This document shows positions 12,827 through 64,000 of a DNA stretch of 64,000 nt, in pieces. The stretch is from Chitinophaga oryzae. Its GTDB lineage: Bacteria; Bacteroidota; Bacteroidia; Chitinophagales; Chitinophagaceae. Each line of letters opens with the position of its first letter. Within the stretch, counting starts at the first letter, position 1. Under the pieces are notes generated by a model, which worked only from the letters and a program-made list of their open reading frames with translations, made no database searches and was not told the origin of the DNA. The translations under genes were made by a program, and so were the position numbers. The DNA lies in the NCBI RefSeq assembly GCF_012516375.2, contig NZ_CP051204.2, forward strand, positions 4,278,001 through 4,342,000, written 5' to 3'.

Positions 12827-14101
12827 ATGACTATGGCCATTGAAGCACAAATAAACACCGGCTACAACCCTCAGGGGAACATCTACCAAAAATACCGCCC
12901 GCTGGACCATGATAACCTTAAGATCGATGTTAATGCCGACAAGGACACTATCAAAAAAATCGCTACCGACCGGATAAATATTCTTAAAGATGACAACAGG
13001 AATATATACCTGCTGAAGTTCCGGGCCAAAAAAATGCAGCAGATACAGCAAACAGAAAAAGCAGCTGGCAGGAAACCGCCACTGGGCATTGTTTCATCGG
13101 GAAGAAGCGCCTGGATCAAAAAAATGTACGCAACAGGCCGAAGCATACTGGGGAACAACCAACGCTTTGCCGGTATCGATGACCTTACCCCCATTGCTAA
13201 CGGCGATAAGATCCCCGTTTATTTCCCCTATCGGCTTACTGCTGAAGATGCCGACCAGAGAGGATTCTACATTTTTGTTCAACAAAACGAATATCAAACC
13301 TACGTCACCGACCTTAAGGATACCGGTATTACCGTGATAGGGTATGAACTGGGGACGGAGTACAAGCCTATGCTGGGTTTCGGCGCCAGCCGCTATGCTG
13401 CAGTGAACTTCTTCAGCAATATCGGCGCATCAATGGCCTGGTTAATAGATGACAATGTACTCTACATTGCACGCCTCCATGAGTTCAGTTTTTTTGAAGC
13501 CAAAATGAACAGCACCCCCGGCTGCTGGGCGCTGGGAGGTACCGGACAGGCGATATACCAGACAGAGAAAAGTCTCCGGGATATCAGAAAAACGTCGGTT
13601 TATACCCCGCCAACAAATTTCATGGGCCCGGATTTCCTTCAACAGGCGGTATTGTGGAATATCAAACAATTCGTCGGTAACACTATCAACTTCAGCCCCT
13701 ACTTCATCTGCTCCGGCGAAGATGTCAGTATCTCCTACTTCCTGGGGAAAGACAAGTGCAAGGCGTTCTATGAATGTCTTATCTATAAAGGCTGTGACAG
13801 CAAGGCAGCAGCGAACAAACAACTTCAAAAGCTGAAAAACGGGATATACAATTTAATTGACGGCGTAGATCCTATACCTGTCAACGGCAACTCCACTCTC
13901 AGGAAACTACTGCAGTCAAATAAAAAATCCCTGAAGGGCGACCCGATCGAAATAGCCCGCATGAAAGCTTCGGAACAAATTCAGCTGAAATATATGTCCA
14001 ATGAAAACAGTATAACAACACGGACTGATCTTACTTCCAAGCTACTGCAGATCGTTTTTATCTTCAAAGGTAAATATGATGTTCAACTAATGAATGCATA
14101 A
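12827..14101 (+). CDS. Unrecognised 424-aa protein at the head of locus A, possibly glycosyltransferase-like
   Basis: No signal peptide or membrane segment. The N-terminal ~85 residues are charged and helical. The centre has a segment that reads like a nucleotide-sugar enzyme of GT-A type: LGFGASRYAAVNFFSNIGAS followed by MAWLIDDNVLYI, where a hydrophobic strand ends in Asp-Asp-Asn, placed like the metal-binding DxD of GT-A folds. The C-terminal part contains Cys residues (FICSGEDVS, KDKCKAFYECLIYKGC) and a Lys-rich tail. The glycosyltransferase idea is a guess from one motif. Start is ATG 12827, with a second ATG two codons later. The stop is 42 bp before the DUF6603 gene in the same direction, so it is probably the first gene of the locus A operon. 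I find no counterpart in locus B within the window. Confidence 0.55.
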   Translation: MTMAIEAQINTGYNPQGNIYQKYRPLDHDNLKIDVNADKDTIKKIATDRINILKDDNRNIYLLKFRAKKMQQIQQTEKAAGRKPPLGIVSSGRSAWIKKMYATGRSILGNNQRFAGIDDLTPIANGDKIPVYFPYRLTAEDADQRGFYIFVQQNEYQTYVTDLKDTGITVIGYELGTEYKPMLGFGASRYAAVNFFSNIGASMAWLIDDNVLYIARLHEFSFFEAKMNSTPGCWALGGTGQAIYQTEKSLRDIRKTSVYTPPTNFMGPDFLQQAVLWNIKQFVGNTINFSPYFICSGEDVSISYFLGKDKCKAFYECLIYKGCDSKAAANKQLQKLKNGIYNLIDGVDPIPVNGNSTLRKLLQSNKKSLKGDPIEIARMKASEQIQLKYMSNENSITTRTDLTSKLLQIVFIFKGKYDVQLMNA

Positions 14102-14143
14102 CTGATGGTACCGTTATCATCGCTTCCCGCTAAATAACCAACA

Positions 14144-17100
14144 ATGGATATCTCTGAACTGATCAGTAAACTCAGGGCAGACGCTTCAGCCGCCGGGCAG
14201 GTGGTGCTGAATACCGCCTACCTCAGCGATGCACAGGTGGCCACCATACAGGGCGTGCTTGGTATGGCTCCTACCCGATATATCACGATCAAAAACCTCC
14301 GGGCAGGAGACATCCCCGATGCCCAAAACAGCGCCGTCACCATTACCGCCGGGCAGGCAGATCTGTTAAATCAGAACAGCCTCCCCGTAAAGGAGTTGAT
14401 TTTCACGGTGGGAGCGGCACAGACGATAGACTTTATTCTCAATCTGGCGTTACCTTCCTCCTGGCAATGGACCAGTTCCTTCCCGGACCTCAGCCTGCCG
14501 CCCTTTACACTGCTTCCCGTATCGGACGGTTATTTCGTTTACACGACCACGTCACAAAGCGATTACCAGGTCAACGCCAATAGGAGTATCCCATTGTCTG
14601 CAGGCCTGAACTTTTCCTGCCTCACTGACGTCAGTAAAATACCTAAACTGGCTGCCATACTCGGCTCCGTCCCCTCCGGCAACCTGCCGCTGAGCGGTAC
14701 TGCCGACTTTAAAAACAACACTACCGCTTATCCGGCCACGACGTTACTGGTACCGCTCCTCTCCCAACTTCCGCTGACAAATAAATTTAAACTCAGCAAC
14801 CTGCAGCTGAAAATTGAAATTACCGACCCTGACGGGGCGGCACAGGACATCATTACGGGACTGTGGGCCACCGATCCTATGTTCAACCTGCTGTTTCTGC
14901 TGGACAATACCTCTTCGCTGATGATCGAAGTAGACTGTACGCCGCTCAGCAGTGCCGGCACTACCTTGGCCCAGCTGAGCTCCTGCAGTATTGCACAGGC
15001 GCTGATAGGATCTTCCTGGCATTTTGAAAACTTTGTCCCGGCCGCACTCAGCGGCGCATTTGGAAGCATCACCTTTGACGTGATCCTTTCACTTTCTTTT
15101 TCCGGCGGATTCAATGTTCGGGGCATTACATTCAGGGCCTATTCGGACAGCAGCCTGGGACTGGGATTATTTACGCTCAGCGGCTTCCAGCTCAACTTCA
15201 CCCTGGACAACCCGGGCGGCCAGGCAGCCGCCTATGTACACATGCTGATAGAGGCGAAAATTCCGTTGCAGACATTTAAGGGCAACTTTATCGGCACTAT
15301 TGACATCAGCACCAGCGATAATACCAATACCGGCAGCACCTGGAATATCGATACGATCACCGCAGCTTACCCTGATACCGTTTCTTTCACCGACCTCATA
15401 CAGGAACTGGATCCGGGAATTACCTTTCCGCAGGAACTGGCGGAGCTTACCTTCTCCGATTTCTCCCTGGAGGCAGACCCCGGCGGAAATTCGTATACCT
15501 GTGCCTGTTATGGCACGCTGGACATGCACCTGTTCGATGTAATGCTCAGTACACAATTCTCCCTGCTGATAACACACAATGGCAGCACCTCCTATGAGTT
15601 GAAGGCCGATACCATTGTCGGTGAGACTTTTCTGAACGCGGATCTTCAGCTAAACAACAATGAAATCGTTTTCACCGGTTCCGCCAAAGACATTCCCCTT
15701 ACCGACCTGCTGGCCAGTATTTTTTCCGATATCAACATCGATCTGACCATATTGCCGGAAATCACACTATCGGCAATATCCATCCAATACAACACGCCTT
15801 CAGTTGACACGCTTACCATTACCGGCTCGCTTGATTATAACGGCACCATGGGAGATTTCCAGCTCGTTGGCCAGAAAAGCAATAACCAGTGGCAGTTTGT
15901 GGCCATGGCCGGGTTTGACCTTAACCCTGCATTTGATATCGGCGCCCATATCCCGCTGGTAGGCGGTAAGCTGACCGGAGACCTGACATTGAAAAAAGGG
16001 TATCTGATCATCACCTCCAAGGCGCCGCAAGGGATTAAGTTTACCGGCCTGCCGCCCAACATTCCACCTGGTATTTCCTTCTATTTTGACCTGGAGCTGA
16101 GAGGAAAAGATACTCCTGTCACCCTCCCTGTGCTCGCCTACTCCGCCGATTTCAAAGCGGTCATGAACAGCTTTTACCTTGCTACCAGTGAAGCGGATAT
16201 CAGTTCCGGAAATACCGCCTATACCATCCAGATCGGGAAAAACCTCGGGCCGCTGTACGTTGATTCTCTCTCCCTGAGCTACAAGGACCAGGTCATCTAT
16301 TGCAATATCAACGCAACCATGAAGGTCGGACCGTTTGATGCGGCCCTGGACGGGCTGGGCATTGGCACGTCCCTCAGTGCGTTTACACCGTCGTTTAGCC
16401 TGAATGGTCTCAGCTTCGATTTCACAACAGCATCTTTCAGTATTGACGGGGCACTCATTCGCATACCGGACAGTCAGCTTGCACAGGGTGTTTCCCTTCA
16501 GTTCGACGGGGCGCTGATCGTCAAAATACAACAACTGGGACTTGCTGCGCTGGGCTCTTATGCTCAGCTAAGCGATGGCGAAGCATCGTTCTTCATCTTC
16601 CTGGAAGCCGATTTTCCGCCAGGCGGCCCGCCTTTCTTTATGGTCTCCGGGTTGATGGGAGGATTTGGCTTTAACAGAACGCTTGCGCTGCCCACCTTTG
16701 ATGAAGTACAGAACTTTCCGTTACTGGCCCTCGATGCGCCGCCAACGGGCAGTAAGAAAGATGTGGCCATGCATACGCTGCAGGTACTGGAAGGACAGAT
16801 ACCGGGAACTGACAATACGAAGCGGCAGTGGGCCAGCCCGCGCAGCGGCGACTACTGGATGGCGCTGGGCGTAGCATTCAACTCATTTGAGATCATTAAC
16901 GGAAAACTACTGCTGACAGCGGAATTAGGCCGGGAGACACAATTTTCGCTGCTGGGCCTCTCCTGGATGGCCTTACCACAGAAAGCGGTGGAGGGAGACA
17001 GACTGGTATTCGTGGAACTGCAGATGGCCGCAGTACTAAAACCGGAAGACGGCACGCTGCAGATTGGCGCAAGCCTCACCAGTAATTCATTCGTATTAAC

Positions 17101-18445
17101 CAAAGACTGTCATCTTACCGGAGGCTTTGCATTCTACCTGTGGTTCGGCGATAGTCCCGACGCCGGTCAGTTCGTACTGACTGCCGGCGGTTACCATCCC
17201 GCCTTTAAACCACCTGATTATTACCCTGAAGTAGCCCGGCTGGGATTCAACTGGCAGGTATCTGGCGATGTGTCCATCAAAGGCAGCTCCTACTTTGCCT
17301 TTACGCCATCCTGTGCCATGGCCGGCGGACGACTACAGGTACAGTTCCAGTCAGGTCCGCTGCGCGCCTGGTTCGACGCCGGCGCCAATTTCCTTGTCAC
17401 CTGGCATCCATTGACATTTACCGCCAGCATATGGGAAGAAATCGGCGTGTCGCTCACCGTAAAAGTGTGGTTTATCCATAAAACGCTCAGCGCCAGCGTA
17501 GGCGCCGCGGTGGATATGTGGGGACCGCCGATCGGCGGTATTGTAAGGGTGCATGTTGTCTTTGTCACCTTTAAAATCAGGATCGGTTCTGACGGTGCCC
17601 AGGACAAAAACAAACAGGTACTGGTATGGGATGAATTCAAAGAAATGTTACCGAAGCCCGAAGACCGCTGTACGATCATCGCCAACGACGGTTTGACCAA
17701 TATGCTGGAAAAGGACACCGTATCAGGTCAGATTATCTACAACGGTGACACTACCGGCAACCCCACTACGAAAGTTTGGTTCCTGCGGTCAGGCAGGCTA
17801 AGGTTCACCACCAAAAGCATGATCCCTGCCACCAGTCTGACTTATGGCAATGACAGCGGGCAACGCGTAAACGGCGCTTCCAACATCAGCATCCGTCCGA
17901 TGAATATTACCACTGCGACCGCCGTCCATAATCTATGTATCACGCAAAACAGCGCCAGCGGCGATCCTATCAGTGTTGACGGCTGGACGTTCACCGCCAA
18001 CTACGGGAATGTAGCCGCTACCTTATGGGGACAACCCATAACAGAAAACGGGCAGTTTGTACAGGCACCCTCCACCCCCTCAGCTGATACGGTAGGCAGT
18101 CAGCTCACCGGCTATACCGTAGAAGCGCCAGCCCCTCAACCCGGCTACACCTTCGGTATCGTGCAGATGCGATTGCTGCTGAACGAATATATCTGCCAGA
18201 CCGATAATCCGCAGAACCCGCTCAGCAAATCACATGCTTACAACAACGACTATACGCCGTCCGCCAGCGACACTACCCTCGCCGATATCAGCACTATCGG
18301 GACTACGCTAACGGCCGCCAGGAACGCGTTGTACGCAGAACTGCAACAGGACGGCCTTTATACCGGCAGCAATGACAGTATGCAACAGATGGGCGCCACC
18401 GCCAACGGCTTATTTGTTGACATTCCAATGGAACAATCCAACTGA
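14144..18445 (+). CDS. DUF6603 domain-containing large protein (locus A)
   Basis: 1433 aa, no signal peptide, dominated by alternating polar and hydrophobic beta strands. The DUF6603-type signature lies in the centre: PPGGPPFFMVSGLMGGFGFN (around residues 825-845), then RTLALPTFDEVQNFPLL, and later GGYHPAFKPPDYYPEVARLG and FTPSCAMAGGRLQVQF. The part before it consists of repeated strands of the type LTGDLTLKKGYLIITS and LSLSYKDQVIYCNIN. The C-terminal ~220 residues form a separate region (RFTTKSMIPATS) also found in the giant paralogue at 52254. Alignment of the motifs puts this whole protein against residues from about 1420 onwards of the 3204-aa locus B protein. The domain's role is unknown; an elongated beta scaffold is my inference. 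Next gene begins 2 bp after its stop. Confidence 0.8.
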   Translation: MDISELISKLRADASAAGQVVLNTAYLSDAQVATIQGVLGMAPTRYITIKNLRAGDIPDAQNSAVTITAGQADLLNQNSLPVKELIFTVGAAQTIDFILNLALPSSWQWTSSFPDLSLPPFTLLPVSDGYFVYTTTSQSDYQVNANRSIPLSAGLNFSCLTDVSKIPKLAAILGSVPSGNLPLSGTADFKNNTTAYPATTLLVPLLSQLPLTNKFKLSNLQLKIEITDPDGAAQDIITGLWATDPMFNLLFLLDNTSSLMIEVDCTPLSSAGTTLAQLSSCSIAQALIGSSWHFENFVPAALSGAFGSITFDVILSLSFSGGFNVRGITFRAYSDSSLGLGLFTLSGFQLNFTLDNPGGQAAAYVHMLIEAKIPLQTFKGNFIGTIDISTSDNTNTGSTWNIDTITAAYPDTVSFTDLIQELDPGITFPQELAELTFSDFSLEADPGGNSYTCACYGTLDMHLFDVMLSTQFSLLITHNGSTSYELKADTIVGETFLNADLQLNNNEIVFTGSAKDIPLTDLLASIFSDINIDLTILPEITLSAISIQYNTPSVDTLTITGSLDYNGTMGDFQLVGQKSNNQWQFVAMAGFDLNPAFDIGAHIPLVGGKLTGDLTLKKGYLIITSKAPQGIKFTGLPPNIPPGISFYFDLELRGKDTPVTLPVLAYSADFKAVMNSFYLATSEADISSGNTAYTIQIGKNLGPLYVDSLSLSYKDQVIYCNINATMKVGPFDAALDGLGIGTSLSAFTPSFSLNGLSFDFTTASFSIDGALIRIPDSQLAQGVSLQFDGALIVKIQQLGLAALGSYAQLSDGEASFFIFLEADFPPGGPPFFMVSGLMGGFGFNRTLALPTFDEVQNFPLLALDAPPTGSKKDVAMHTLQVLEGQIPGTDNTKRQWASPRSGDYWMALGVAFNSFEIINGKLLLTAELGRETQFSLLGLSWMALPQKAVEGDRLVFVELQMAAVLKPEDGTLQIGASLTSNSFVLTKDCHLTGGFAFYLWFGDSPDAGQFVLTAGGYHPAFKPPDYYPEVARLGFNWQVSGDVSIKGSSYFAFTPSCAMAGGRLQVQFQSGPLRAWFDAGANFLVTWHPLTFTASIWEEIGVSLTVKVWFIHKTLSASVGAAVDMWGPPIGGIVRVHVVFVTFKIRIGSDGAQDKNKQVLVWDEFKEMLPKPEDRCTIIANDGLTNMLEKDTVSGQIIYNGDTTGNPTTKVWFLRSGRLRFTTKSMIPATSLTYGNDSGQRVNGASNISIRPMNITTATAVHNLCITQNSASGDPISVDGWTFTANYGNVAATLWGQPITENGQFVQAPSTPSADTVGSQLTGYTVEAPAPQPGYTFGIVQMRLLLNEYICQTDNPQNPLSKSHAYNNDYTPSASDTTLADISTIGTTLTAARNALYAELQQDGLYTGSNDSMQQMGATANGLFVDIPMEQSN

Positions 18446-18447
18446 TT

Positions 18448-20736
18448 ATGAAAAACATAAAAGACCTGAATGACGATATCCCTGTGGGGGACATTAAGTT
18501 GTTCGACAACTATATTCCCTCCATCGAAGCCGGCAATTACTTCATAACTGTCCGGCAGCCGGTATACAACGACAGTACGCAGCTGGATACCGATGGCGTG
18601 GACGCCGTGCAGGAATTCACCGTAACAGCCCCGCAGTTCTTTATTGATAAAGCGCAGGTAGTAGGTATGTACCCTGCTCCCGGCAGCAGCGGTAAATACA
18701 GTGAAGTGCTACCCAACATTGTCCTGAAAGATGCGGGACTTCCCTGGGAAAGAGGTATGGACAAACCCGGTACGCCGTGGCTGGCGCTTATGGTATTCCA
18801 GGAAACCGAGCTGAATGACGGCGACGATACCGGCGACAAATCCACCACGACCACCGTAGCAGCATTTCAGCAGGGCCAGAGCGGCGTATTAATGCCCAAA
18901 ATTACCCGTGAAGATGACATAGACCCGAAAAGCAGCTGTAAAACAATCAGTATGAGTGTTGATGTTTTTCAGAAGATCGCGCCTGGGCTCGACGAGCTGT
19001 CCTATCTCTCCCATATCCGCAGGATCAACACCGACAACTGCGCTATCGGCGGCATCAATGAACACGGGCTCTTCTCCGTGGTGGCCGCTAACCGCTTCTG
19101 CCTGTCGCCCGAAAGCCAGCAAACCCAGCTAAAGAACATTGTACACCTGGTGTCGCTGGAGGGCATGGAGGAATACCTCCACCCAAAGGTTGACCTCAGC
19201 AGCTATTCAGGCGTAGTATTGCTAAGCCTGGCCAGCTGGACGTTCCAATCACAGGCAGACGGCTACAGCTTCCGTATGCTGGCTGAGAACCTGGTCAACT
19301 CGGAAAAAAACGGCAATGCCGTAGATCCGTCACTGTTATGGCTCCGGCTACCTGTGCCCGCAAACACCAACACGAATATGAATGCGGTCGTACGCCAGCG
19401 GATCAGTGACGGCTATGTTCCGCTCCCCTGGCAGACCCGCAGCGGCGAAAGCACCTTTGCCTGGTATCGCGGGCCATTGACTCCGTTGCTGCCGGCTCCC
19501 TCCACCACCCATTACCCAACAGCAGATGCAGCACTGATATTTGACAAAACACACGGCATATTTGACGTTGCACTGGCCGCTGCCTGGGAAACCGGCAGGG
19601 AGATAGCGCTGGCCGATGCGGCCTTCCTGCGCAAAGTAACGGACTTCCGGCAGCAAATGAACCTTATCGCCGACAAACTGATGCACCGCGCCACCTCGCC
19701 GCATTTCACGTCACAGGCGATAGCAGATACAGATCCCCGCTCCACCGTGCAGGAAAGGCTAAGATCTTTATTGACACCGCAACTGATAAAGGACATCGGC
19801 AATACCGCTTCACAGATGCCTGGCAAACGTGCGACGGTAACCAGGGCAAAAACCGCTGCACCGGACCCTCAACTGCAACTGAGCACATTCTTCGGGCGCA
19901 AAGACGTGCAGGAACGCCTGCAACAGCTGGCAGCGGACATTTCCGGAGAGTTGTCTGACTGGCTGGCAAAAGTAAAACTACTCTATCCTGTTCCATTCAG
20001 AAAGCTGATCGCAGACGAGCGGATGCTCCCCAACGAATCACTGCGTTTTTTTTATGTAGATCTCAATTGGCTGAATGCCGCTATCGACGGGGCCATGAGC
20101 TTCGGCATCACCTCCGGTAAAAACCAGCTGCTGCACGACATCGTGATGCCGGGAATCAGAGCCGCAGCACAGCAGAAAGCGGGTATGATACGGTCCCGGA
20201 TAACAGGGCGACAGACTGCCGACACACAGCCCCCGGACGTGATGAGCGGCTTCCTGCTGAGGTCCGACATGGTGAAGGCATGGCCCACACTGGTTATACG
20301 TGCCCGGGATGCCAGCGACAACTCCCTTAACATCATCCGGACAGACCACCTCGCCCCCAATGTATTGTTATGCATCTTCAGCGGGGTCCCCGACAACGTT
20401 ACCCTCAGCGAGCCTGCGGAAACGCTCTGCTTTGGCGTGGACGATGAAGGATATGCCGTTATCAGGAACATCGTTGCCGGCGATACCGCCCTGGGGCAAC
20501 AGCTGGGCACCGTGCAGGTCCGCGACCTCTCAGGAAAACAACAATACTGTATGCGCGCACCGGGCAGCCATGTGCTGAACATTGCACCGGAAGATCCTAA
20601 CGGCCTCGTACAAACGCTGCAGCGCTCCATGACCAGTTTAAAAACGCCGCCACCCAACGGTCAGTTAACCGCCGGCACACTGGCACTTCAGATGATGAAG
20701 TCTGCCGAAGCGGTGGTGTTCCAAAGTCAATCTTAA
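18448..20736 (+). CDS. Unrecognised 762-aa locus protein (fused form of two locus B genes)
   Basis: No signal peptide. Two regions can be told apart by comparison with locus B. Residues ~1-430 match the 61865 protein: the LPNIVLKDAGLPWERGM block, PGLDELSYLSHIRRINTD, and the long signature GYVPLPWQTRSGESTFAWYR followed by GPL and AAWETGREIALADAAF. Residues ~500-762 match the 63382 protein: LSDWLAKVKLLYPVPFRKLI, then ADERMLPNESLRFFYVDLNW and the DGAMSFGI tail. The second region is a compact, highly conserved block, so it probably carries the core function. I cannot name the family. The gene follows the DUF6603 gene by 2 bp and precedes the 1262-aa gene by 11 bp, so co-transcription is likely. 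Confidence 0.75.
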   Translation: MKNIKDLNDDIPVGDIKLFDNYIPSIEAGNYFITVRQPVYNDSTQLDTDGVDAVQEFTVTAPQFFIDKAQVVGMYPAPGSSGKYSEVLPNIVLKDAGLPWERGMDKPGTPWLALMVFQETELNDGDDTGDKSTTTTVAAFQQGQSGVLMPKITREDDIDPKSSCKTISMSVDVFQKIAPGLDELSYLSHIRRINTDNCAIGGINEHGLFSVVAANRFCLSPESQQTQLKNIVHLVSLEGMEEYLHPKVDLSSYSGVVLLSLASWTFQSQADGYSFRMLAENLVNSEKNGNAVDPSLLWLRLPVPANTNTNMNAVVRQRISDGYVPLPWQTRSGESTFAWYRGPLTPLLPAPSTTHYPTADAALIFDKTHGIFDVALAAAWETGREIALADAAFLRKVTDFRQQMNLIADKLMHRATSPHFTSQAIADTDPRSTVQERLRSLLTPQLIKDIGNTASQMPGKRATVTRAKTAAPDPQLQLSTFFGRKDVQERLQQLAADISGELSDWLAKVKLLYPVPFRKLIADERMLPNESLRFFYVDLNWLNAAIDGAMSFGITSGKNQLLHDIVMPGIRAAAQQKAGMIRSRITGRQTADTQPPDVMSGFLLRSDMVKAWPTLVIRARDASDNSLNIIRTDHLAPNVLLCIFSGVPDNVTLSEPAETLCFGVDDEGYAVIRNIVAGDTALGQQLGTVQVRDLSGKQQYCMRAPGSHVLNIAPEDPNGLVQTLQRSMTSLKTPPPNGQLTAGTLALQMMKSAEAVVFQSQS

Positions 20737-20747
20737 AATCAATCCGT

Positions 20748-24536: not shown

Positions 24537-24550
24537 AAAAGTATACTACT

Positions 24551-26122: not shown

Positions 26123-26152
26123 CAGATTCTTCAGCATTTCAAAATTATTAAT

Positions 26153-27103: not shown

Positions 27104-27125
27104 TTACCACATAAATCACCTCACT

Positions 27126-29367: not shown

Positions 29368-29386
29368 ATGTGATAAATTATGAACA

Positions 29387-29449: not shown

Positions 29450-29506
29450 TTAATTTTGAGGGGTTTAACACTGCAGAAAAAAATCCTGCTTTGGACAGGC
29501 AGCTAT

Positions 29507-30767: not shown

Positions 30768-30857
30768 TAGTATAGTAGCATAAAGTTACCCCTGGCAGTC
30801 AGGGAGATTTTACTATCTTACACCCACACTCGTTTTAACCCGAAAAATGTCTACCGA

Positions 30858-48302: not shown

Positions 48303-48440
48303 TACGTTCAGTACCGGCATTATTCACCGTATCCGGAAATTCTCCTATGGGAACCAGATCGCGCGGAAAATCGTGGTGCTGCTTCACAAATTATTGTACG
48401 TCCTGTTACAGGAAAATAATCGGTTACAAAAACTATTCGT

Positions 48441-49112: not shown

Positions 49113-49161
49113 CAAAAACACATATCTATTCAATCTCATCCAAACAAAAAAATATTTAATC

Positions 49162-49803: not shown

Positions 49804-49816
49804 AATGTAAAATAGT

Positions 49817-50461: not shown

Positions 50462-50502
50462 CACCTGCAAATATTTTCGTCCAACAGCAAATCAACAATG
50501 GT

Positions 50503-50544
50503 CCGGTCCCGCTAATGACTCATGACAAATCCGGGACCGGTTTT
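50503..50544 (+). terminator. Intrinsic terminator after the glycine-rich genes
   Basis: Perfect 9-bp stem CCGGTCCCG (50503-50511) / CGGGACCGG (50532-50540) followed by TTTT. It lies between glycine-rich gene 3 and the lipase gene, so the lipase and later genes may have their own promoter or depend on read-through. Confidence 0.7.
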
Positions 50545-50617
50545 CTGATCAATTCTTCCATTACCTGTCTGAGGAACAACAGGAGATTTGTTCTCCAGAC
50601 GTAAAACGCTTCCTACA

Positions 50618-52210: not shown

Positions 52211-52253
52211 TGCCAGGTGATTTCCGGTTTTCCTGACCCTCAAATCATTGAAG

Positions 52254-55200: not shown

Positions 55201-58200
55201 GCGTAGAAAAAGTGATCGTTGGCTGCAATCTCTCTTACGATACCACCAACAAGTCATTTCATTTCGAACCCGTTGTAACGCTGATCAACGTCACCCTGCC
55301 CGGCCAGCAGCCAAAAGCACAACTGACCTTGCAGGACTTCCTGGACCCGGGCTTTACCGCTGCGTTCCAAAATGGCTTTATGGTATTGCTGAATGCCGGT
55401 CTGCAAGCGGCATTTGAACAGGTAAAAGCCAAACCGCTCTTCCAGCAGGCCTACAGCCTCTTGTCCATGCTGGGGCTAACGATGACGCCCGACGGAGAAA
55501 CAGATATCCGCAATATACAGCTATACAATATCACAGACGGTTTGCTCGGTATCAACGCCGCAGGCTGGAACGGACTACTCGCCAATTTCGACACTTACAT
55601 ACAAACGCAATTCAATAGCCTGCTGGCCATAAAGGAACAGCGCAGCCTGCTCTTCAACTTCCTGTCAGAGATCTTCGGCATACAGTTCCCGAACTTCCCT
55701 GAGCCAGTGCTGCAGCTGTTACAGGGCATGGGCATCTGCGGACCTGCTGACGAAGGATATACCGTATATCCGTATGTGTTACTGGACTTGATCAGCAATC
55801 CCTACAAAACATTCCAACAACTTTATCAGCAACTGTTTGATATTGCAAACGTCGCCAACCTGAAACAACTGGCGGCGCATCTGTCCAGGAACCTGGGCCC
55901 CTACAAAACCGGCAGCTGGACCTTCAGCACCGATTCAAACGGCGTTATATCCTTTGGTATTCTACCGGCCGACGCATTCCAACTGGGCTCCTTCCTCCTT
56001 ACCAGTGGCGGCATACAGCTGGACCTCAGCAACGAAAAGCTGGAAGGAACAATGGATATTTACTGCGCAAACGTAGGTATAACGCTCAGATGTGGATTTA
56101 CGCTGAAGCTGGAAGCCGGCGTACTGAAACCTGCATTTACGGCATCCGCAGTATGGGGAGACGGCAGCAAACCAGCCGCTCAGGCTCTCCAACTTATACC
56201 GTTTAACACCAGCGACTTCCTCAACAACGTTGCTGACCTGGCCCCGGCTTTTACCCTCAATATTGTCCTCAACGCTATTTTTGAAGAACAGCTGCTGAAA
56301 AAATATCCGCTCGTCCAGCAGATTTTTATCGGACTGGGATTGGGAGAACAAATGCCAACGGAAAGCCTGGCAGTACAAAAATCGGTGAACAGACGGCATG
56401 CCGCTGCTACATCTGTTGCCGATCAGCAGTGGCAGATGCCAGCCCTCATGGGCATCCTCGAAAATCCGCTGGGATGGATCCTCTCCGACGATGTATTAGG
56501 TATTAACGGCAGATTCAGTATCTCAAAACTGGTGCAGATGCTCAGTCATCTGCCGGCAGTGCAAGCCTCCAATGGCATCAAAGTTACGCCTGACACCAAA
56601 GGGATGACTATCAGCGGCATGCCTTATGGCTTTGAAATTTCCATGAGTGGAGAAAATGAAGTAGCCACTTTCGGTTTTGATACCAAAGACCTTGTTATCA
56701 GCAACGAGTGGGGCACGTTGAACCTGCTGTCTTTCCAGATGAGCGTGGATAGTAATTACCAGCCCTCTTTCGCTGGTGAACTTACCGTTTCCACCGGCTC
56801 AAAAATAACCGTTCCATTTTTTGTCAACACCGGATATAACAAGGACTTTTTCCTCAACATCGCGCAGGGCAAACCAGGCACCCCGGATGGACTCGCGCTG
56901 CAATTACTGCCTTTCCTTGGATGGGGCACACTGGCCGAACAGGCAGCCCGGCTCGCAGCGGCGGCAGTTTTGAAGAATCTTGTTCCGATTGTATTACAGA
57001 AATTATCCGACAGCGGCGCTAAAGCATTCGTAGACAAACTCATTGCATTTGGCGATGCTGTCAATACCACAGCACTGGTAGACAACATCATCAAAGTATT
57101 GACACCATCTGCATTTGCGACTACTTCACAGCAGGACCTGCTCCAACAGATTGAACAGGTCGCGCTGGCGTGGTTACAGGAAAAATTCACGCCGGCGGGC
57201 GCTCCTGTAACGGTGCAGGGTTTAATTACTTTGCTCAAAGACGTAATGCCGGGTGTGTCTGCACAGGGCGGCAGATTAGCATTTACACCGGACAGTAAGA
57301 TACCGATCACCATTCTCGCAGGACTGAATGACAATGGGTTCTTAGGGCTGTGGGCTGCCTTCACCCTCCCCGACACACAGGTATTGAAAATACAAATTGC
57401 GGAAACCGGCGTTGGTGTAAAACTGGATGGAACCCTTGATTTCTCTTTTGCCCTGGACATGCTGATCCCTGTAGATGATAACAGCGGACCAGGTTTAACG
57501 TTTGCCTATGATTTAAACAAAGGATTCAATCTCGTATTCGACCCAACCAGCGATAGCACGGATTTCTCCAAACATTCAGATCTGGCAGTAGAACTGTTAC
57601 CGGATTTCTTCAGCAATCCTGCCGCTGATCCGGGCGCCATGCAACAGAGCGTAACCGATTGGTTATTGCAGGTGGTAAAAGTAGTGCTGCCACGATATGT
57701 TTCCCTCCTGGTGCTCAACATTCAAAAAGTGAAAGACTGGCTGGAAGCACCTATCGTGACTTCTGTTGCCGGTGCGCCTACACCTGCTGCACTGTTGACA
57801 GCGACGTCCCTCATCCTGAAGAACAATGGAAAATATGAACTGAACAGTATCGACAATCTTATCAAGCTAACACCATCCGGTTTCTTTGGCAACCTGTTCT
57901 ACACGCTGATGCAGACAGAATTAACCCTGTTGCAATTCGGCGATAAGAACAGTGGCAAAATCACCGTAGGCCCACGTGCAGGCAAGCAGGATTACTATGG
58001 CGTAAGAGTGGCGGCGCCTAACCTTAAACTCACTGCCCTGCCTAATCTCGTAGTGCAAATAGGTGCAGACGATACCGAATGGATCGATAAATCCAGTACC
58101 AATAAAATCACCGGAGAACCGGGCATAGGCTTCTACCTGCCTATTACTAAGTCGGGCAATAATGAACTGAATGTTGACTTCTCCCTGTTCAATTTATTGT

Positions 58201-61200
58201 TGTATAATCTCGGTTTTGATGTCGTTGGCACCAATGGCAAGCCTATTGTGGACCAGCCGCGGTTTAAAATTGGCGCAGTGCAGCCGAGAACGGTATTTGA
58301 ACTGGATTTCAAAGGCAATGCAAAACCTGGCCTGCAATTCGGCGCAGGCGTCACTTTGGCGAACATCGGATTATCGCTCGCGCCGGATAAACTGGCAGGT
58401 TCCGCAGGCACCAATCCCATTGCCAATAACATCCTCGGTTCAGGCAGTACAGCTGGTAACCCGCCTGTAAATCCCGAATTTTCCGTCAGCACCGCTTATA
58501 CCGACAAACTGTGGGTAAATCTGAAATCCAATACCGGTAACGGTTCGCAGGTAATCGTACCGATAGAACGATCTTTTGGCCCATTGTATATTGACAGCCT
58601 GGGCCTGGGTTGGGAAGACACAAATAAACTCCTTGACTTCCTGTTCTCCGGAAATGTGGCCCTGGCAGGCCTTAAAGCATCCGTGGTAGGTTTAACGGTA
58701 GGCGTTCCCGTTACTGACCCTACGAACTTCAGTTTATATAAGGCAGACCTCCAGGGATTGGACATCAGTTTCAACGGAGGGGCTGTTGCCATCAATGGCG
58801 GGTTCCTGAAAACAGAAACCATTGTCAATAATGCGAAGGTTATTATGTACAATGGTGTAGCGGTGATTAAAGCAGGCACCTTCTCGCTGATGGCGCTGGG
58901 CTCATACGCGGAAGTGCCGGTATCTCCCGCCCCGGGTGCACCCACCATGCCTTCCCTGTTCATATTCGCTGTGCTGAATTCGCCATTGGGCGGTCCTCCA
59001 TTCCTGTTTATTACAGGTATCGCGGCGGGCTTTAGTTTTAACCGTTCGCTGGTGATCCCTGATATTACCCAGGTACAGGACTTCCCGCTGTTGAAAGGCC
59101 TCGTGGATGGTACTTTTGCAGAAGGTGAAGATCCGGGCAAGGCGCTGGAACAACTGAGTTCGGTAGTGCATCCGGAAATAGGACAATACTGGCTGGCAGC
59201 AGGTGTGAAGTTTACTTCCTTCGAACTGCTGACCACCTCCGCCCTGCTGTTCCTCAGCTTTGGCAAGGAATGGGAAGTCAATTTGCTGGGGCTCAGCTTT
59301 ACCTCCCTGCCGCCAAAGATCCCAAGAAATCTGGCGCTGGCTTACTTCGAGCTGGCTATCAAAATATCCTTCCTTCCGGGAGATGGAATACTCTCCGCAG
59401 AAGCGCAACTGACACCCAACTCATTCGTATTATCGAAAGATGTGAAAGTGACCGGAGGGTTTGCCTTCTTCCTATGGTTTAAAAATATCAAAACGTCCAC
59501 CTACACTATACCTGCCGGTGATTTCGTCATCTCATTGGGTGGCTACCATCCTGATTTCAATAAGCCGGCATGGTACCCTACTGTTCCACGACTCGGGATG
59601 CAGTGGAAGATGGATATCTCCGTAGGCAGCATCAGTATTGCCGGAGGCGCCTACTTTGCATTATGCCCCACGGCTGTTATGGCGGGCGGATATCTCAACG
59701 TAGCCTATGAACTGGGCCCGTTGAAAGCATGGCTGAACGCATCTGCAGATTTCCTCATCGAATGGAATCCGTTCTACTTCAATGTAGGCATCAGCATCAC
59801 AGTGGGCGCATCTTTCGGAACAACTATCCTCGGTGTATCCATCACCATCCGCGCAGAACTTGGTGCTACTCTCCACCTGGAAGGCCCGCCAACACATGGT
59901 TATGTGAAAGTGGACTGGTACGTTATTTCCTTCACCATCCCTGTGGGCTCAGGAGAAACTGCCACCACCGACAAGAATATCACCTGGAAAGCGTTTGCCG
60001 ACGCCTTCCTGCCTCCCCCTGCATTACCGGGAAGCACGATGGGCAATGCCAAACGGAAAGTGAAGGCAGCAGATGAAGTGCCTGTGCAACAGGTCGTGAA
60101 ACTCAACCCGGACTATGGGCTGCTGAGCGATGATAACAGCCTCTGGACCATTCAACCCTATCCATTCACCCTTAGCGCCAAATCGTCGATTCCTGCATCC
60201 AATGTGGCTGTCACCAGCAGCAACTTCAGTCAGAAAGGCGTTCCTGTTGGGGTACGGCCAATGGGCTATGTCGATAACCTGAATGCTGCGCTGGTGATTA
60301 CGCTGACAGACAGCAAAGGTAATCCGGTAGATCTGTCGGCCCGCAAAATCAAAATGATCGTGGACACCAACGGCGCGCCATCCGCGATGTGGTCCCAGGA
60401 TCCGCTGGACCGCAACAAGCCGCCACAGAGCGATGATATGCTCATCCCTGGCGCTTCTTTCGGTATCATACTGGATGGTGATGAATACAATTACCTCGGT
60501 AATGTACCTGCATTCAACATAGAAAATCTCAAATACGATATTGGCGCGTACCGCATGCTGCCTTATAAGGCGGTTATCAAATTCCCGCCGGCAGCAAGAT
60601 ATCCGGCAAGCGATCAAAATAACGCCTATCACGTGATCATGCATTCCATCATGAGTGACCCTGTTATCATTCAGCGTAATAAGATCCTGGAAGGCATCGC
60701 TGCCAGCAACATACTGGCGCCGCTCAATCCGGACCTCAGTGTGATGGCCTCTTCCGCAGACATGATCCTGCAGGCGCTTCCTGTGATTGCACGACTGGCT
60801 GTCTTCCAAAACAATGGTGAACTGGAAGCTGCAAAGAAAATACAGCCGCCTGCAAGACCGCTGGCTGCAGCAAGTAGCGTCAAAAAGCTGAAAGCGCCGC
60901 AGCTGGTAGGTTTGGTGAAGAGGTATAAAGTGAACCGTAACCAGGCCTCCAAATCAGGTAATCCTCAGACTACCGTCAGGAGCCAGTATCAGGCGGTCAA
61001 CGACATTACCAGTAAAACGAAACGGCCGGCGATTGGCAGAGCAGCCGCTGAAGCCCTGGGCACCACCAAAATGTTATACGATGGAACGTCCGTTCTCTGG
61101 ACAGTGGATCATCGGGCTGCCACTACGCTACATCTGAAAGGAGATCTGCCGCTGCGCGTTGTTAGCTTCGACCGTCATGGCCGGCTCACCGGCATACACG

Positions 61201-61868
61201 CAGTAGTGGGCGAACAAAACATAAGCTTGGCCGAAGGTACCGCACAGGTGGCCGTTCAGGGTTATGAAGCCACCGGAGAAGGATTCATCGGCTGGGAAAT
61301 CAATTCACAGCTATTTAAGACCAACACCGTATGGGCGCTCGGCGATGCTGCCATGGTAAGGGTACAGAACAGTCAGCGTATACGCGTTCGCGGTACCCGT
61401 GCCCATACCGGGCTGATAGATGCGGCTGATCTGCTGTCACGCAACCAGGCAACAGACATCAACCAAAATACCCGTAGCGGCTGGATACAATCTGTATTCC
61501 CTGCAGACATCAGCTACATCGGCGTATTGCTGGAAGAGCAGACAGGTGCAGAAAGACTCGATGTGGCTATTGCTGCCGGCACTATCCCTTTGCAGGGCGC
61601 CAATCTGCCACCGGCACAGGTATACGAAACAGAGAAAGGCACGCTGCTGGTTTACCCTTGTACACCATCGGACAGTTACAATGCCATTCTGGCCATACCA
61701 AAAGATAATAAAGTGAAGATACTCGGTATGTATGGCTTGCCGGCATTACCGGCAGACAAGCGGACCATCAGCAACTTTACGCATCTGCGCAATGCAGGAC
61801 TGGATCTTACCAACTCAGTTGTAAAATCCGCTGTTGTTAGTATTCATTCCAAAAACCAGGCACTATGA
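52254..61868 (+). CDS. Giant DUF6603 domain-containing protein (locus B, 3204 aa)
   Basis: Start ATG 52254; a TTG at 52248 would add two residues. No signal peptide. The first ~1420 residues have no counterpart in locus A. They contain at least three repeats of ~260 residues marked by GTGTRMNPF, GSGTKDDPW and GAGTFDDPW (near 357, 613 and 876). From about residue 1420 the protein matches the 1433-aa locus A protein: the DUF6603 signature SPLGGPPFLFITGIAAGFSF (from ~2243), SLVIPDITQVQDFPLL, GGYHPDFNKPAWYPTVPRLG (~2430) and CPTAVMAGGYLNVAY. The C-terminal ~350 residues after this form a Lys/Gln-rich linker (RPLAAASSVKKLKAPQLV) and a beta domain. Composition is strongly beta; elongated shape is inferred. 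The stop overlaps the next start by ATGA. Confidence 0.8.
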   Translation: MINEISAAIPARHTQAMAGIGDNGLTFTGLDPVLASMGILIGLLTQPDPQQEVYQLNPNWFANPINNTQQGITANPEQFEKLLTSILGKIGGNALGIPIQDAALLGTWYPIKNGNDPTGFYLVSYQKENNGLKETVLGLGVLHTWKVPPGSPLLTVEVWGLMPFVAIGNGSFKITFTDQGYPISLGVATQGGDPKLPLVDINGISFDGVKFSAMIDVAASDPFSVSLEVLSLKIGSAPPANKSLADLLAISGQEMLEIATNLFMGALSYVFPNQQQYLNYITPLLGLTSQVPNLPDVTLPVMEWYNLFEVASNPAKYPEGVKTLFFNWFNALCTDPDALKGWISALSGFLGNSNLQITGTGTRMNPFRLAILNVSSIGQLDFSVATTVDEGGIRYFYPGFSFAGSNVPLGSSPAVFTAQANLELGQFGLSAQAVTASPEINFQFQFALQNKTTGQPLVSYDGNSVGSLTAGLVLGSDGKIVPDFSLNQVVTTATSFDKVNLLSPGELAEAGAAALSAALGTLIGIGTSNFADNIGALIGLITPASAKSNWPTTLPAPFSGTQMAHSILNPVKAWADYYLAVLQYANPVDGKAAFAYIIQEMALLLQQTVSGLNVTVTGSGTKDDPWMAGIALSSSSLPAYLTAFKQANTDNSIDLVMGLTLQPTITVAGVDIAPSLNMEALALHFPANGAGIDASWLPAVSARLQLPNGFMTPDLGGVVVSVSKSQLSAEWDRQRGWGWSMFVDSPKLIINGQDIILGQNLNFDQQTNLKDLVLNAVPAFSPFLVGALGALLMRVENRAALFAIGALGLIPDITKSPVFPAGLSWTGFQQLKLNSLSNPWPDLRNYLSATFGTAANAKSLLSLLSYVVNTQIEAAPATGGAGTFDDPWTFPLPAGFEGIAWYEGAGQILGLGAGRSNSWQYQITNGNDTTKFGFNLLARANALKYNLSTGTLLFDGQVPSFSLTGMLYNPDGMLVNLPASLGSVEKVIVGCNLSYDTTNKSFHFEPVVTLINVTLPGQQPKAQLTLQDFLDPGFTAAFQNGFMVLLNAGLQAAFEQVKAKPLFQQAYSLLSMLGLTMTPDGETDIRNIQLYNITDGLLGINAAGWNGLLANFDTYIQTQFNSLLAIKEQRSLLFNFLSEIFGIQFPNFPEPVLQLLQGMGICGPADEGYTVYPYVLLDLISNPYKTFQQLYQQLFDIANVANLKQLAAHLSRNLGPYKTGSWTFSTDSNGVISFGILPADAFQLGSFLLTSGGIQLDLSNEKLEGTMDIYCANVGITLRCGFTLKLEAGVLKPAFTASAVWGDGSKPAAQALQLIPFNTSDFLNNVADLAPAFTLNIVLNAIFEEQLLKKYPLVQQIFIGLGLGEQMPTESLAVQKSVNRRHAAATSVADQQWQMPALMGILENPLGWILSDDVLGINGRFSISKLVQMLSHLPAVQASNGIKVTPDTKGMTISGMPYGFEISMSGENEVATFGFDTKDLVISNEWGTLNLLSFQMSVDSNYQPSFAGELTVSTGSKITVPFFVNTGYNKDFFLNIAQGKPGTPDGLALQLLPFLGWGTLAEQAARLAAAAVLKNLVPIVLQKLSDSGAKAFVDKLIAFGDAVNTTALVDNIIKVLTPSAFATTSQQDLLQQIEQVALAWLQEKFTPAGAPVTVQGLITLLKDVMPGVSAQGGRLAFTPDSKIPITILAGLNDNGFLGLWAAFTLPDTQVLKIQIAETGVGVKLDGTLDFSFALDMLIPVDDNSGPGLTFAYDLNKGFNLVFDPTSDSTDFSKHSDLAVELLPDFFSNPAADPGAMQQSVTDWLLQVVKVVLPRYVSLLVLNIQKVKDWLEAPIVTSVAGAPTPAALLTATSLILKNNGKYELNSIDNLIKLTPSGFFGNLFYTLMQTELTLLQFGDKNSGKITVGPRAGKQDYYGVRVAAPNLKLTALPNLVVQIGADDTEWIDKSSTNKITGEPGIGFYLPITKSGNNELNVDFSLFNLLLYNLGFDVVGTNGKPIVDQPRFKIGAVQPRTVFELDFKGNAKPGLQFGAGVTLANIGLSLAPDKLAGSAGTNPIANNILGSGSTAGNPPVNPEFSVSTAYTDKLWVNLKSNTGNGSQVIVPIERSFGPLYIDSLGLGWEDTNKLLDFLFSGNVALAGLKASVVGLTVGVPVTDPTNFSLYKADLQGLDISFNGGAVAINGGFLKTETIVNNAKVIMYNGVAVIKAGTFSLMALGSYAEVPVSPAPGAPTMPSLFIFAVLNSPLGGPPFLFITGIAAGFSFNRSLVIPDITQVQDFPLLKGLVDGTFAEGEDPGKALEQLSSVVHPEIGQYWLAAGVKFTSFELLTTSALLFLSFGKEWEVNLLGLSFTSLPPKIPRNLALAYFELAIKISFLPGDGILSAEAQLTPNSFVLSKDVKVTGGFAFFLWFKNIKTSTYTIPAGDFVISLGGYHPDFNKPAWYPTVPRLGMQWKMDISVGSISIAGGAYFALCPTAVMAGGYLNVAYELGPLKAWLNASADFLIEWNPFYFNVGISITVGASFGTTILGVSITIRAELGATLHLEGPPTHGYVKVDWYVISFTIPVGSGETATTDKNITWKAFADAFLPPPALPGSTMGNAKRKVKAADEVPVQQVVKLNPDYGLLSDDNSLWTIQPYPFTLSAKSSIPASNVAVTSSNFSQKGVPVGVRPMGYVDNLNAALVITLTDSKGNPVDLSARKIKMIVDTNGAPSAMWSQDPLDRNKPPQSDDMLIPGASFGIILDGDEYNYLGNVPAFNIENLKYDIGAYRMLPYKAVIKFPPAARYPASDQNNAYHVIMHSIMSDPVIIQRNKILEGIAASNILAPLNPDLSVMASSADMILQALPVIARLAVFQNNGELEAAKKIQPPARPLAAASSVKKLKAPQLVGLVKRYKVNRNQASKSGNPQTTVRSQYQAVNDITSKTKRPAIGRAAAEALGTTKMLYDGTSVLWTVDHRAATTLHLKGDLPLRVVSFDRHGRLTGIHAVVGEQNISLAEGTAQVAVQGYEATGEGFIGWEINSQLFKTNTVWALGDAAMVRVQNSQRIRVRGTRAHTGLIDAADLLSRNQATDINQNTRSGWIQSVFPADISYIGVLLEEQTGAERLDVAIAAGTIPLQGANLPPAQVYETEKGTLLVYPCTPSDSYNAILAIPKDNKVKILGMYGLPALPADKRTISNFTHLRNAGLDLTNSVVKSAVVSIHSKNQAL

Positions 61869-63385
61869 CATCCCGTTTTGATACCAATCCCGGCACTATC
61901 GGCCCGGGTATGATACGCTTCTACGATGCGATCCTTAATCCGCTGGAAGCCGGCGAATATACCCTCAAAGCCGAGCAGCAGGTTAAAGACCTGCCGGGAG
62001 AAACGCCACCGCCCTATGTGGCCACACAACAGCTGGTCGTGGACGGTCCCAGGTATAATATCAGCCCTGCCGACATCCACATGGTATATCCTCCGGCTAA
62101 CCAGGAAGGCCTCTATGATACCGTGATGCCCAATATGGTATTTACCAACTTTGCACTGCCCTGGGCCAGAGACATCGACCCTGCGGTAAAAACAAACAGT
62201 AATCTCTCCGCCAAAGACGGCGATGGAAACCCCATTCCATGGATTGGATTATTAACCATATACCCCGATGAACTGGCTGGCAGCGGCGGCACTGCAAAAG
62301 CAGGCGCGCCGCAAACCGTAACCGTGTCTGAACTGGTTCATCCTAAAGATCCGAAAATACTTCCACCCGCGCTGGGCGATTTATTCGGCGCAGAAGATAC
62401 GCAGGTATCTGTAGTAGACCTAGACATCGCCTATTTCCAGTCCATCTGCCCCAGCATCGATGAGCTACCCTTTCTGGCCCATGCCCGGGAAGTAAATACG
62501 GATGGGAAAATTCTGCTGGGCATGGATGACGATGGCTGCTTTTCACTTGTATTCAGCAACAGGCTGCCGGTGGCCCCCGGGCAGAATACCATGTACCTTG
62601 TGTCTTATGAAGGACACCAGGCACATCTTCATGGCAGCACTATCAGCGGGGACTATACGAAAATACGGCTGGTATTATTGGGGACCTGGCAGTTTAAGGC
62701 CCTGGATGCACAAGGCAGTTTCATCCAGTTGATGGCCAATCTTTGTTTACCAGGCAGAGGTGGGGTAAAACTGCTCCAGATGCCCCTTTCAGACGAAACC
62801 GGGCAGATATCCGAAGACGCGCAGAAAGCCATCCAGATGGGTTATGTGCCCATACAGAATAACATGCGGCAGGGAGAAGAAAGCACCTCCTGGTACAGAG
62901 GACCATTCGTACCCTCTCCGACCAAACGCGATTTCTCCTATGGCCCCTATCATTACAGCGACCATGCCATTCATTATGATCCGGAAAACGGATTGTTTAA
63001 TCATGCCTATAGCAGTGCATGGCAGACAGGCCGTTTGCTGGCATTGTCCGATTCCAATTTTTCGTCCGCCATGTTCAACTGGAGAAATAATTATCTCAAC
63101 AGCATCGTCAACTCCACGAAACAACTGGATGGGGAAAAAATGATGGCCATTGCCGGAGAGGCGCATGGCATGATGCCGGCAGCGCATGCGCGGGCAGCAG
63201 TGGGTATGCTGCTGGCAGGCGGCTTCAGTAAGGTAAAATGGCCACAGATTCTGAGCCGCACAGAAAGGGTGTTACAGGAAGGACTACCCGGCGTACTGAG
63301 TGAAGAAGAGAAAATCGCCATTGTGGAAAACGACGCAGATCCATTATTAATGCTTGTTAAAAAAATAAAAGGAGAACCGCTATGA
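61865..63385 (+). CDS. Locus B protein matching the N-terminal part of the 762-aa locus A protein
   Basis: 506 aa, no signal peptide. It aligns with residues ~1-430 of the 18448 protein: YDTVMPNMVFTNFALPWARD, CPSIDELPFLAHAREVNTDG, LVSYEGHQAHLHG, GYVPIQNNMRQGEESTSWYR then GPF, and SSAWQTGRLLALSDSNF. The remaining ~80 residues are helical and partly charged (GMLLAGGFSKVKWPQ, LSEEEKIAIVENDADPLL). It overlaps the DUF6603 gene by 4 bp (ATGA) and the next gene by 4 bp (ATGA), so translation of all three is probably coupled. Family unrecognised. Confidence 0.75.
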   Translation: MTSRFDTNPGTIGPGMIRFYDAILNPLEAGEYTLKAEQQVKDLPGETPPPYVATQQLVVDGPRYNISPADIHMVYPPANQEGLYDTVMPNMVFTNFALPWARDIDPAVKTNSNLSAKDGDGNPIPWIGLLTIYPDELAGSGGTAKAGAPQTVTVSELVHPKDPKILPPALGDLFGAEDTQVSVVDLDIAYFQSICPSIDELPFLAHAREVNTDGKILLGMDDDGCFSLVFSNRLPVAPGQNTMYLVSYEGHQAHLHGSTISGDYTKIRLVLLGTWQFKALDAQGSFIQLMANLCLPGRGGVKLLQMPLSDETGQISEDAQKAIQMGYVPIQNNMRQGEESTSWYRGPFVPSPTKRDFSYGPYHYSDHAIHYDPENGLFNHAYSSAWQTGRLLALSDSNFSSAMFNWRNNYLNSIVNSTKQLDGEKMMAIAGEAHGMMPAAHARAAVGMLLAGGFSKVKWPQILSRTERVLQEGLPGVLSEEEKIAIVENDADPLLMLVKKIKGEPL

Positions 63386-64000
63386 AATCATGGGGAAACA
63401 GAGATGCCGTCATCACAGACGTAACAAGGAAATTGTTGGCTGCCAGGGAAGGAAACTATCCTTTTCCCGATTTGCCGGACAACCTGACTAACTGGCTGGC
63501 CCAACTCACCCTGCTGTACGGCGTACCGGTAGAATACATGGTAGCAGATAATCGCATGCTGCCACTGGAATCCATGCGGTTCTTTTACATAGACAGGAAC
63601 TGGCTGGACCGGCTGGTAGACGGCGCCCTCAGCGTAGGCGTGCTTTCATCCAGGGAGCAGGTGTTTAACGAAACTTTCTACGAAGACATCTATGCCCAGA
63701 TAGACGTACGGCAAATGCAGCTGCGCGCCAATCTGCGAAATGAAACACCTCCGGCTGTAACGGCCGCCGGTGGCGGCATGACAGGCGTGATATTTCGCTC
63801 CGTTGTAGTGTCGGGATGGCCGGGGCTGGAAATAGAAGCGTATAAAGACAAAGTGCTGCTGAAAATACTGCGTATGGACCGCCTGTCTGACAACACCATG
63901 CTTTGTATCTGGGAAGACCTTCCGGATACCGTAAATTTCATAGAGCCTTCCGAAGGGCTGCATTTTGGCGTTATCATGGACCCGGGCGCCGATACCTTCA
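63382..64000 (+). CDS. Locus B protein matching the C-terminal part of the 762-aa locus A protein, 3'-truncated
   Basis: Open from ATG 63382 to the window end, 206 residues visible. LTNWLAQLTLLYGVPVEYMV, ADNRMLPLESMRFFYIDRNW and LDRLVDGALSVGV align with LSDWLAKVKLLYPVPFRKLI, ADERMLPNESLRFFYVDLNW and DGAMSFGI of the 18448 protein, followed by TGVIFRSVVVSGWPGLEI (versus SGFLLRSDMVKAWPTLVI) and EGLHFGVIMDPG. The block is highly conserved between loci. A GGAG motif at 63371 gives a plausible ribosome site, unusual for this organism. In locus A this module is fused to the previous one, so the two proteins probably interact. Confidence 0.78.
   Translation, partial: MKSWGNRDAVITDVTRKLLAAREGNYPFPDLPDNLTNWLAQLTLLYGVPVEYMVADNRMLPLESMRFFYIDRNWLDRLVDGALSVGVLSSREQVFNETFYEDIYAQIDVRQMQLRANLRNETPPAVTAAGGGMTGVIFRSVVVSGWPGLEIEAYKDKVLLKILRMDRLSDNTMLCIWEDLPDTVNFIEPSEGLHFGVIMDPGADTF

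Follow-up and report, generated by a model that had tools for sequence, protein, structure and literature searches.

Extracellular contractile injection systems (eCIS) are mobile multi-gene cassettes that lack signal peptides and encode fibre-like proteins and exchangeable toxin-like enzymes. Tc (ABC) toxins consist of very large proteins encoded in one operon, without a signal peptide and with a cargo enzyme. ApoB100 and the large lipid transfer proteins contain a long amphipathic beta-sheet. Likenesses to all of these, the last in a predicted model, were found in two gene clusters, locus A and locus B, of a 64,000-nucleotide stretch of the Chitinophaga oryzae genome (the window, that is, the whole stretch analysed). 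Both loci contain a gene for a protein with the domain DUF6603 (PF20248), followed by genes of two further types, which are called 762-type and 1262-type after the lengths, in amino acids (aa), of their products in locus A.

Conservation of the core operon

The DUF6603, 762-type and 1262-type genes form a conserved operon that is undescribed as a set. The C half of the 762-type protein, aligned from 10 loci, was used as the anchor for a scan of one genome per species (84,980 species). The scan returned 282 stretches that fitted the peptide pattern, 275 of which encoded a relative. The best 80 of these 275 loci, spanning 12 phyla plus SAR324, were scored for gene content by six-frame profile searches, and the locus counts rest on them. 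The 1262-type gene was present in 79/80 loci and DUF6603 in 72/80; all three core genes were found in 71/80, their order was identical in each of these 71, and the median gap between the core open reading frames (ORFs) was 1-2 bp. The count of 80/80 for the 762-type gene was not independent of the search anchor because the 762-type profile was built partly from fused proteins, and seven gaps in the count behind the median stem from 762-type ORFs that a simple ORF picker overlooked. Complete cores came from 11 rather than 12 phyla, plus SAR324, because the sole Verrucomicrobiota contig was cut.

A test had been proposed of whether the three genes are neighbours across phyla or rarely stand together, and it came out for the former: where each flank measured 9 kb or more, 57 of 58 loci held all three. 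In L133, the sole miss with full flanks, genes of the 1262, fibre and synthase types stood on the opposite side and ran in the other reading direction (L140). The eight other incomplete loci had a short flank on one side, and seven of them had no room for DUF6603.

As a second anchor, PF20248 was found in 17/395 genomes of the phylum of the window (16 above cut-off) and in 7/249 genomes of the phylum of a Paracoccus genome, this centre included. When 16 DUF6603-anchored sites were compared (the sub-threshold site G108 and the window being left out), the core was recognised by BLAST in 9/16, and 7/16 belonged to a remote class; genomes G157, G099 and G048 overlapped between these sites and the 80 loci. 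DUF6603 probably also occurs in fungi.

In the remote class (L035-L042 and L045-L050; G384, G211, G217, G033, G371, G111 and G080), DUF6603 was followed by genes X, Y and Z in fixed order. The DUF6603 protein was about 1150 aa long (2203 in G111). Profile comparison linked X to the 762-type protein (probability 84%, E 7.6e-6) and gave no relation for Y or Z. A subtilase gene preceded DUF6603 in two of the four remote-class upstream genes scanned.

Among the core proteins, only DUF6603 gave a credible family match, and no solved relative was found for any of them. A search of the open-licence literature found no paper that names DUF6603. A core without recognised relatives, whose order is kept from Bacteroidota to Actinomycetota, Paenibacillus and one archaeal metagenome-assembled genome (MAG), has the pattern of an unnamed system.

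Genes of the two loci

The source genome (8.36 Mb, single contig) contained only two DUF6603 genes, both in the window, one in each locus. Their PF20248 scores, about 497-500.1 bits for locus A and about 446-450.4 bits for locus B, passed the curated cut-off of 27 bits; no other Pfam match above cut-off was found in the two proteins (A2 and B6). Locus A was a run of seven genes on the + strand (12827-28274):

12827..14101, + strand: A1, 424 aa, slot gene that precedes DUF6603, perhaps encoding a GT-A-like glycosyltransferase (weak, sub-threshold match to TAGT at E=0.0025)
14144..18445, + strand: A2, DUF6603 protein, 1433 aa (PF20248, 497 bits, residues 697-1224; AlphaFold2 (AF2) model of residues 590-1433)
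18448..20736, + strand: A3, 762-type core protein with N and C halves fused, 762 aa, 2 bp after A2 (AF2 predicted local distance difference test score 85)
20748..24536, + strand: A4, 1262-type core protein, 1262 aa, 11 bp after A3, with homologues in the 79 loci given above
24551..26122, + strand: A5, immunoglobulin (Ig)/fibre protein of family c0 (cluster c0), conserved in the middle of its N half and variable at the C end
26153..27103, + strand: A6, second fibre-type protein (BLAST relatives of the c0 family)
27126..28274, + strand: A7, third fibre-type protein (BLAST relative of c0 members), likely start 27126 as read from the sequence, an ATG inside the listed ORF 27060-28274

The ratio of nonsynonymous to synonymous substitution rates, computed for the A genes against Chitinophaga eiseniae, was 0.08-0.15 for all seven, which speaks against chance ORFs. 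A1 fits the locus A operon directly before DUF6603, and its homologues occupy the same slot in five other loci. An invariant DD pair is common to A1 and these five relatives, which we take to be a GT-A-like motif. A3 gave no Pfam or NCBIfam match; in PHROGs it matched an entry without known function, and only weakly (E=0.0089), and no clear fold in the PDB was found for its AF2 model. Family searches with A4 gave nothing above cut-off.

Locus B extends from 47691 to 78593 and thus runs past the end of the window:

47691..48302, + strand: B1, family c14 protein, 203 aa (tblastn relatives in B-like loci, counted below)
48441..49112, + strand: B2, glycine-rich protein, read from the sequence; other loci have glycine-rich genes between c14 and the lipase
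49162..49803, + strand: B3, glycine-rich protein, read from the sequence, likely start 49162
49817..50461, + strand: B4, glycine-rich protein, read from the sequence
50588..52210, + strand: B5, class 3 lipase occupying the slot that precedes DUF6603 (PF01764, E=2.4e-20; GHSLG motif), likely start read as 50618
52248..61868, + strand: B6, long DUF6603 protein, 3206 aa (PF20248, 446 bits, residues 2107-2615), likely start read as 52254
61865..63385, + strand: B7, 506 aa, equivalent to the N half of a 762-type protein, in 4-bp ATGA overlap with B6 (29% identical to A3 over 410 residues)
63382..64000, continuing to 64293 outside the window, + strand: B8, 303 aa, equivalent to the C half of a 762-type protein, in ATGA overlap with B7
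64304-68299, outside the window: 1262-type relative, 1331 aa
68309-69763, outside the window: fibre-type gene, 484 aa, followed by two 164-aa ORFs
70837-77835, outside the window: polyketide synthase, 2332 aa, with AMP-binding, ketosynthase (KS), acyltransferase, ketoreductase, acyl carrier protein and thioesterase domains
ending at 78593, outside the window: hydroxylase-type gene, clustered with an L100 protein that matches PF05118 at 3.9e-46

B2-B4 (48441-50461) stand in tandem and share a G-x-PYTS start and GxGGxGG blocks; possibly they form polyglycine-II tips, as in some phage adhesins. Past locus B (about 78.7-83.6 kb; L003:18716-20000, L004:96-5594), the minus strand carries genes that, as read from the sequence, resemble one for a VgrG-type protein (700 aa) and amidase-like and CHAP-like genes.

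The DUF6603 regions of the two loci were 32% identical over 646 residues, in agreement with the original prediction that the gene is shared. Its further claim, that the same two modules follow, stood as far as their order is concerned; it needs correction in that B has a split 762-type gene and its 1262-type gene is beyond the end of the window. The tight operon structure was confirmed, with gaps of 2 and 11 bp in A and the 4-bp ATGA overlaps in B. A and B are two long-separated lineages, probably of one undescribed system.

Exchangeable and recurrent partners

"A-like" is used here as a working label, not a clade, for the 41 loci with a short DUF6603 gene starting inside the examined stretch. 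A same-strand slot ORF ending between -200 and +400 bp of DUF6603 was present in 35/41 of them (median gap 14 bp), and the 35 ORFs fell into 20 BLAST groups. Pairwise relatedness was counted in the 34 A-like loci outside the window. DUF6603 was related in 561/561 pairs, the 762-type protein in 376/378 (28 loci), the 1262-type protein in 496/496 (32 loci) and the first fibre in 147/300 (25 loci). The slot genes were related in only 30/561 pairs (5%), that is, they were hypervariable. When 28 upstream proteins, some from loci beyond the 41, were scanned with Pfam, matches above cut-off were obtained to lipase (B5), Exo_endo_phos (L085), DUF4135 (L118), the metallo-beta-lactamase fold (two phylum sites) and subtilase (the two remote-class sites). 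Suggestive matches below cut-off were TAGT (A1), RIP (L068), M91 (L107), Exo_endo_phos (L066) and LCAT (L065). DUF4135 is a LanM dehydratase domain.

A B-like clade, formed by locus B and 16 other rows of the C-half tree, had support 84, and its inner 14 rows had support 99. Partner genes were sought with tblastn in all 80 loci and in 19 upstream stretches, the latter sampled unevenly. A ketosynthase was present in 12/16 B-like loci and in 0/64 others, the lipase in 13/16 plus two others (L096, L103) and c14 in 13/16 plus one other (L096). The hydroxylase was found in 6/16 plus one other (L061), a count affected by nine loci in which the stretch ends within the synthase and any hydroxylase would have been missed. 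The contig of L093 ends inside the core. In three further loci, L095, L100 and L114, the stretch end cut the synthase ORF. The lipase stood before DUF6603, either immediately or separated by one ORF (L140, L145), in 13/18 long upstream stretches, and 10 of these 13 also had a glycine-rich gene. Separate KS-type genes replaced the one large synthase in L117, L130 and L133.

These three loci, L117 with L145, L130, and L133 with L140, combined separate KS-type genes with the hydroxylase, as though one chemistry had been provided by two different routes. L130 adds a short-chain-dehydrogenase-type gene.

The view that the flanking genes are interchangeable accessories fits only the A-like loci, whereas the B-like clade keeps the lipase, c14, the polyketide synthase and mostly the glycine-rich genes across phyla. 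Nor are the Ig/fibre proteins mere accessories: a relative was found in 62/80 loci, so this family is close to a core member. Its mean alignment coverage was 0.80-0.86 in deciles 2-5 and 0.21 in the last decile.

One fibre-cluster protein (L118:14859-18389, 1176 aa) contained a lactonase-type beta-propeller (PF10282, 8.6e-12); it was scanned from L118 and has a near twin in L125.

Spread and mobility

The C-half tree, built by a quick method with midpoint root and with support from the Shimodaira-Hasegawa-like approximate likelihood ratio test only, mixed phyla, with 29 label changes for 12 groups against a minimum of 11. A Vibrio member grouped with two Bacteroidota. The archaeal and several other members were MAGs, for which binning errors are possible. 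Near-identical C domains occurred across two phyla in L097 (Acidobacteriota MAG) and L098 (Sedimenticola MAG), which may reflect recent transfer or a binning error. The core moves between phyla next to changing enzyme genes.

Locus A grouped with C. eiseniae, which was nearest to it, C. solisilvae and C. dinghuensis, and locus B grouped with other Chitinophaga on a separate branch. Because the two branches also have different partner genes, A and B likely differ in function. The nearness of the two loci, which had been offered as evidence for specialisation, is uninformative in this respect because C. eiseniae, which is nearest to A, carries a single DUF6603 gene and has no B at the corresponding site; C. 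dinghuensis has three such genes on three contigs. The window was collinear with C. eiseniae up to 47031, where the match jumped to 86132. The 39-kb stretch with all of B, and with the region of the VgrG-like gene, is absent from C. eiseniae, which has 4 kb of other DNA there instead (54014-58045 of the joined stretch). In L101, from another Chitinophaga, the match to B stopped at 78575, close to where the hydroxylase gene ends. This gap and this match end show B behaving like a cassette, about 31 kb long, that can move.

Given the other DNA in C. eiseniae, the insertion point of B (47031 onwards) may be a hotspot.

Relatives of the 762-type protein were also encoded on eight plasmid records, and on one P. 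polymyxa plasmid an annotated DUF6603 gene precedes the relative. No relative was matched among 50,697 phage records; in viral contigs, 16 stretches fitted the peptide pattern and none was confirmed.

Signal peptides and the predicted DUF6603 fold

By a hydropathy heuristic, signal-peptide-like starts were found in 0/59 DUF6603 proteins, 0/76 762-type proteins, 0/34 C halves, 0/87 fibre proteins and 3/83 1262-type proteins. Five of six other long genes of the window showed such a start by the same heuristic.

Structures were predicted with AF2 for two proteins, the DUF6603 region of A2 and A3. The DUF6603 model was a long sheet of amphipathic beta-strands. It resembled outer-membrane barrels and the lipid belt of ApoB100; the TM-scores were low (0.14), and the barrels scored equally. 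On this predicted sheet, DUF6603 would be the obvious membrane- or lipid-binding part of the system.

Possible function of the system

A Sec-independent, membrane-active delivery complex that carries an exchangeable enzyme is our tentative best guess. We infer this mechanism, and rank a released delivery complex first, because the core is conserved, the fibres are half variable, the slot is hypervariable, no Sec signal was seen and transfer crosses phyla. The DUF6603, 762-type and 1262-type proteins would form a soluble multi-protein complex, which fibre proteins would join, their variable C ends choosing the target. The predicted amphipathic sheet of DUF6603 might bind lipid or enter the target membrane. 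The slot enzyme, glycosyltransferase-like in A and a lipase in B, could in this way be carried to another cell, and the complex may leave the producer without a Sec signal, perhaps via lysis.

Several observations weigh against the delivery complex or the regularity on which it is built. The signal-peptide test was a hydropathy heuristic only, and an internal transmembrane-like window was present in 19/59 DUF6603 proteins. The biosynthetic genes of the B-like clade exceed the needs of a simple toxin complex. L104 is a real exception to the core, with about 8 kb before its 762-type gene yet no DUF6603 there, and the 1262-type gene stands before DUF6603 in three of the nine phylum sites with a core (G065a, G065b, G308). 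As for the slot, the script rule gave no ORF in 6/41 A-like loci, 5/35 slot ORFs overlapped a longer opposite ORF, and one (L092) was itself a fibre. Two further upstream matches above cut-off, to RecG and M16, look like unrelated neighbours, and 14/28 upstream proteins had no useful match.

A lipoprotein-like particle, in which DUF6603 wraps a lipid core like ApoB, the B-like cluster makes and edits the lipid, and the enzyme and fibres ride along, comes second and is considered unlikely. It accounts for the acyl and polyketide chemistry and the lipase of B-like loci, which a plain toxin complex does not. However, the structural scores given above do not separate ApoB from barrels, Pfam scans found no sequence relation between DUF6603 and ApoB, and A-like loci lack these lipid genes nearby. 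In its fullest form, this would be a prokaryotic lipoprotein-like particle with an ApoB-like DUF6603 belt, whose lipid the B-like clusters would themselves make and trim through an acyl-activating polyketide synthase, the class 3 lipase and the hydroxylase, and which would bear fibres and bring a swappable enzyme cargo to other cells; so complete a picture is doubtful, and less probable than either of the next two alternatives.

The proteins could instead build a cell-surface or matrix structure, such as a coat, a fibre network or an S-layer-like array, modified by the enzymes. This third possibility is rather improbable: signal peptides were absent by the heuristic, the slot genes differ between loci, and the system was found both in phyla that possess an outer membrane and in phyla that lack one. 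Ranked fourth, and given still less credence, is a scaffold for secondary metabolism, in which the large proteins would hold biosynthetic enzymes in the cytoplasm while slot enzymes tailor the product. The polyketide synthase and hydroxylase of the B-like clade, the DUF4135 and glycosyltransferase-like genes in A-like slots and the missing signal peptides are consistent with it; the fibre-like family with its variable ends, the subtilase, DNase-fold and RIP-like slot matches, which are unlike tailoring enzymes, and the confinement of the ketosynthase to B-like loci within the sample are not. An accessory of a contractile injection system encoded elsewhere in the genome is very improbable, for although the marker Pvc16_N occurred in 7/17 DUF6603 genomes against 70/378 others of the phylum sample, three of these seven came from a single family where the marker is widespread, 10/17 lacked it, the one marker of C. 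oryzae lies unlinked about 880 kb from the loci, and no contractile-system match was found among the scanned cluster proteins.

Comparison with known systems

The system differs from eCIS and type VI systems in that no sheath, tube, baseplate or ATPase was matched in Pfam and PHROGs scans, which covered proteins other than the 303-, 1331- and 164-aa proteins of B. It differs from Tc toxins in gene count and order and in the absence of TcA/TcB/TcC-type Pfam domains from the scanned core proteins. A search for anti-phage defence with PADLOC gave 0 model matches at E <= 0.01 for nine proteins. Paenibacillus and Actinomycetota lack a Gram-negative outer membrane. Since the system is present in both and DUF6603 showed no signal peptide by the heuristic, it is also unlike outer-membrane barrels (porins, SlpA, FimD). 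Apart from its low TM-score and lack of sequence relation, DUF6603 differs from ApoB100 in being prokaryotic and in being encoded in a multi-gene operon. Should its function be enzyme delivery, the system would be a delivery machine of a new class; should it be lipid carriage, it would be a bacterial counterpart of the lipoprotein particle. Both readings are directly testable because one lineage has exchangeable partners and the other recurrent ones.

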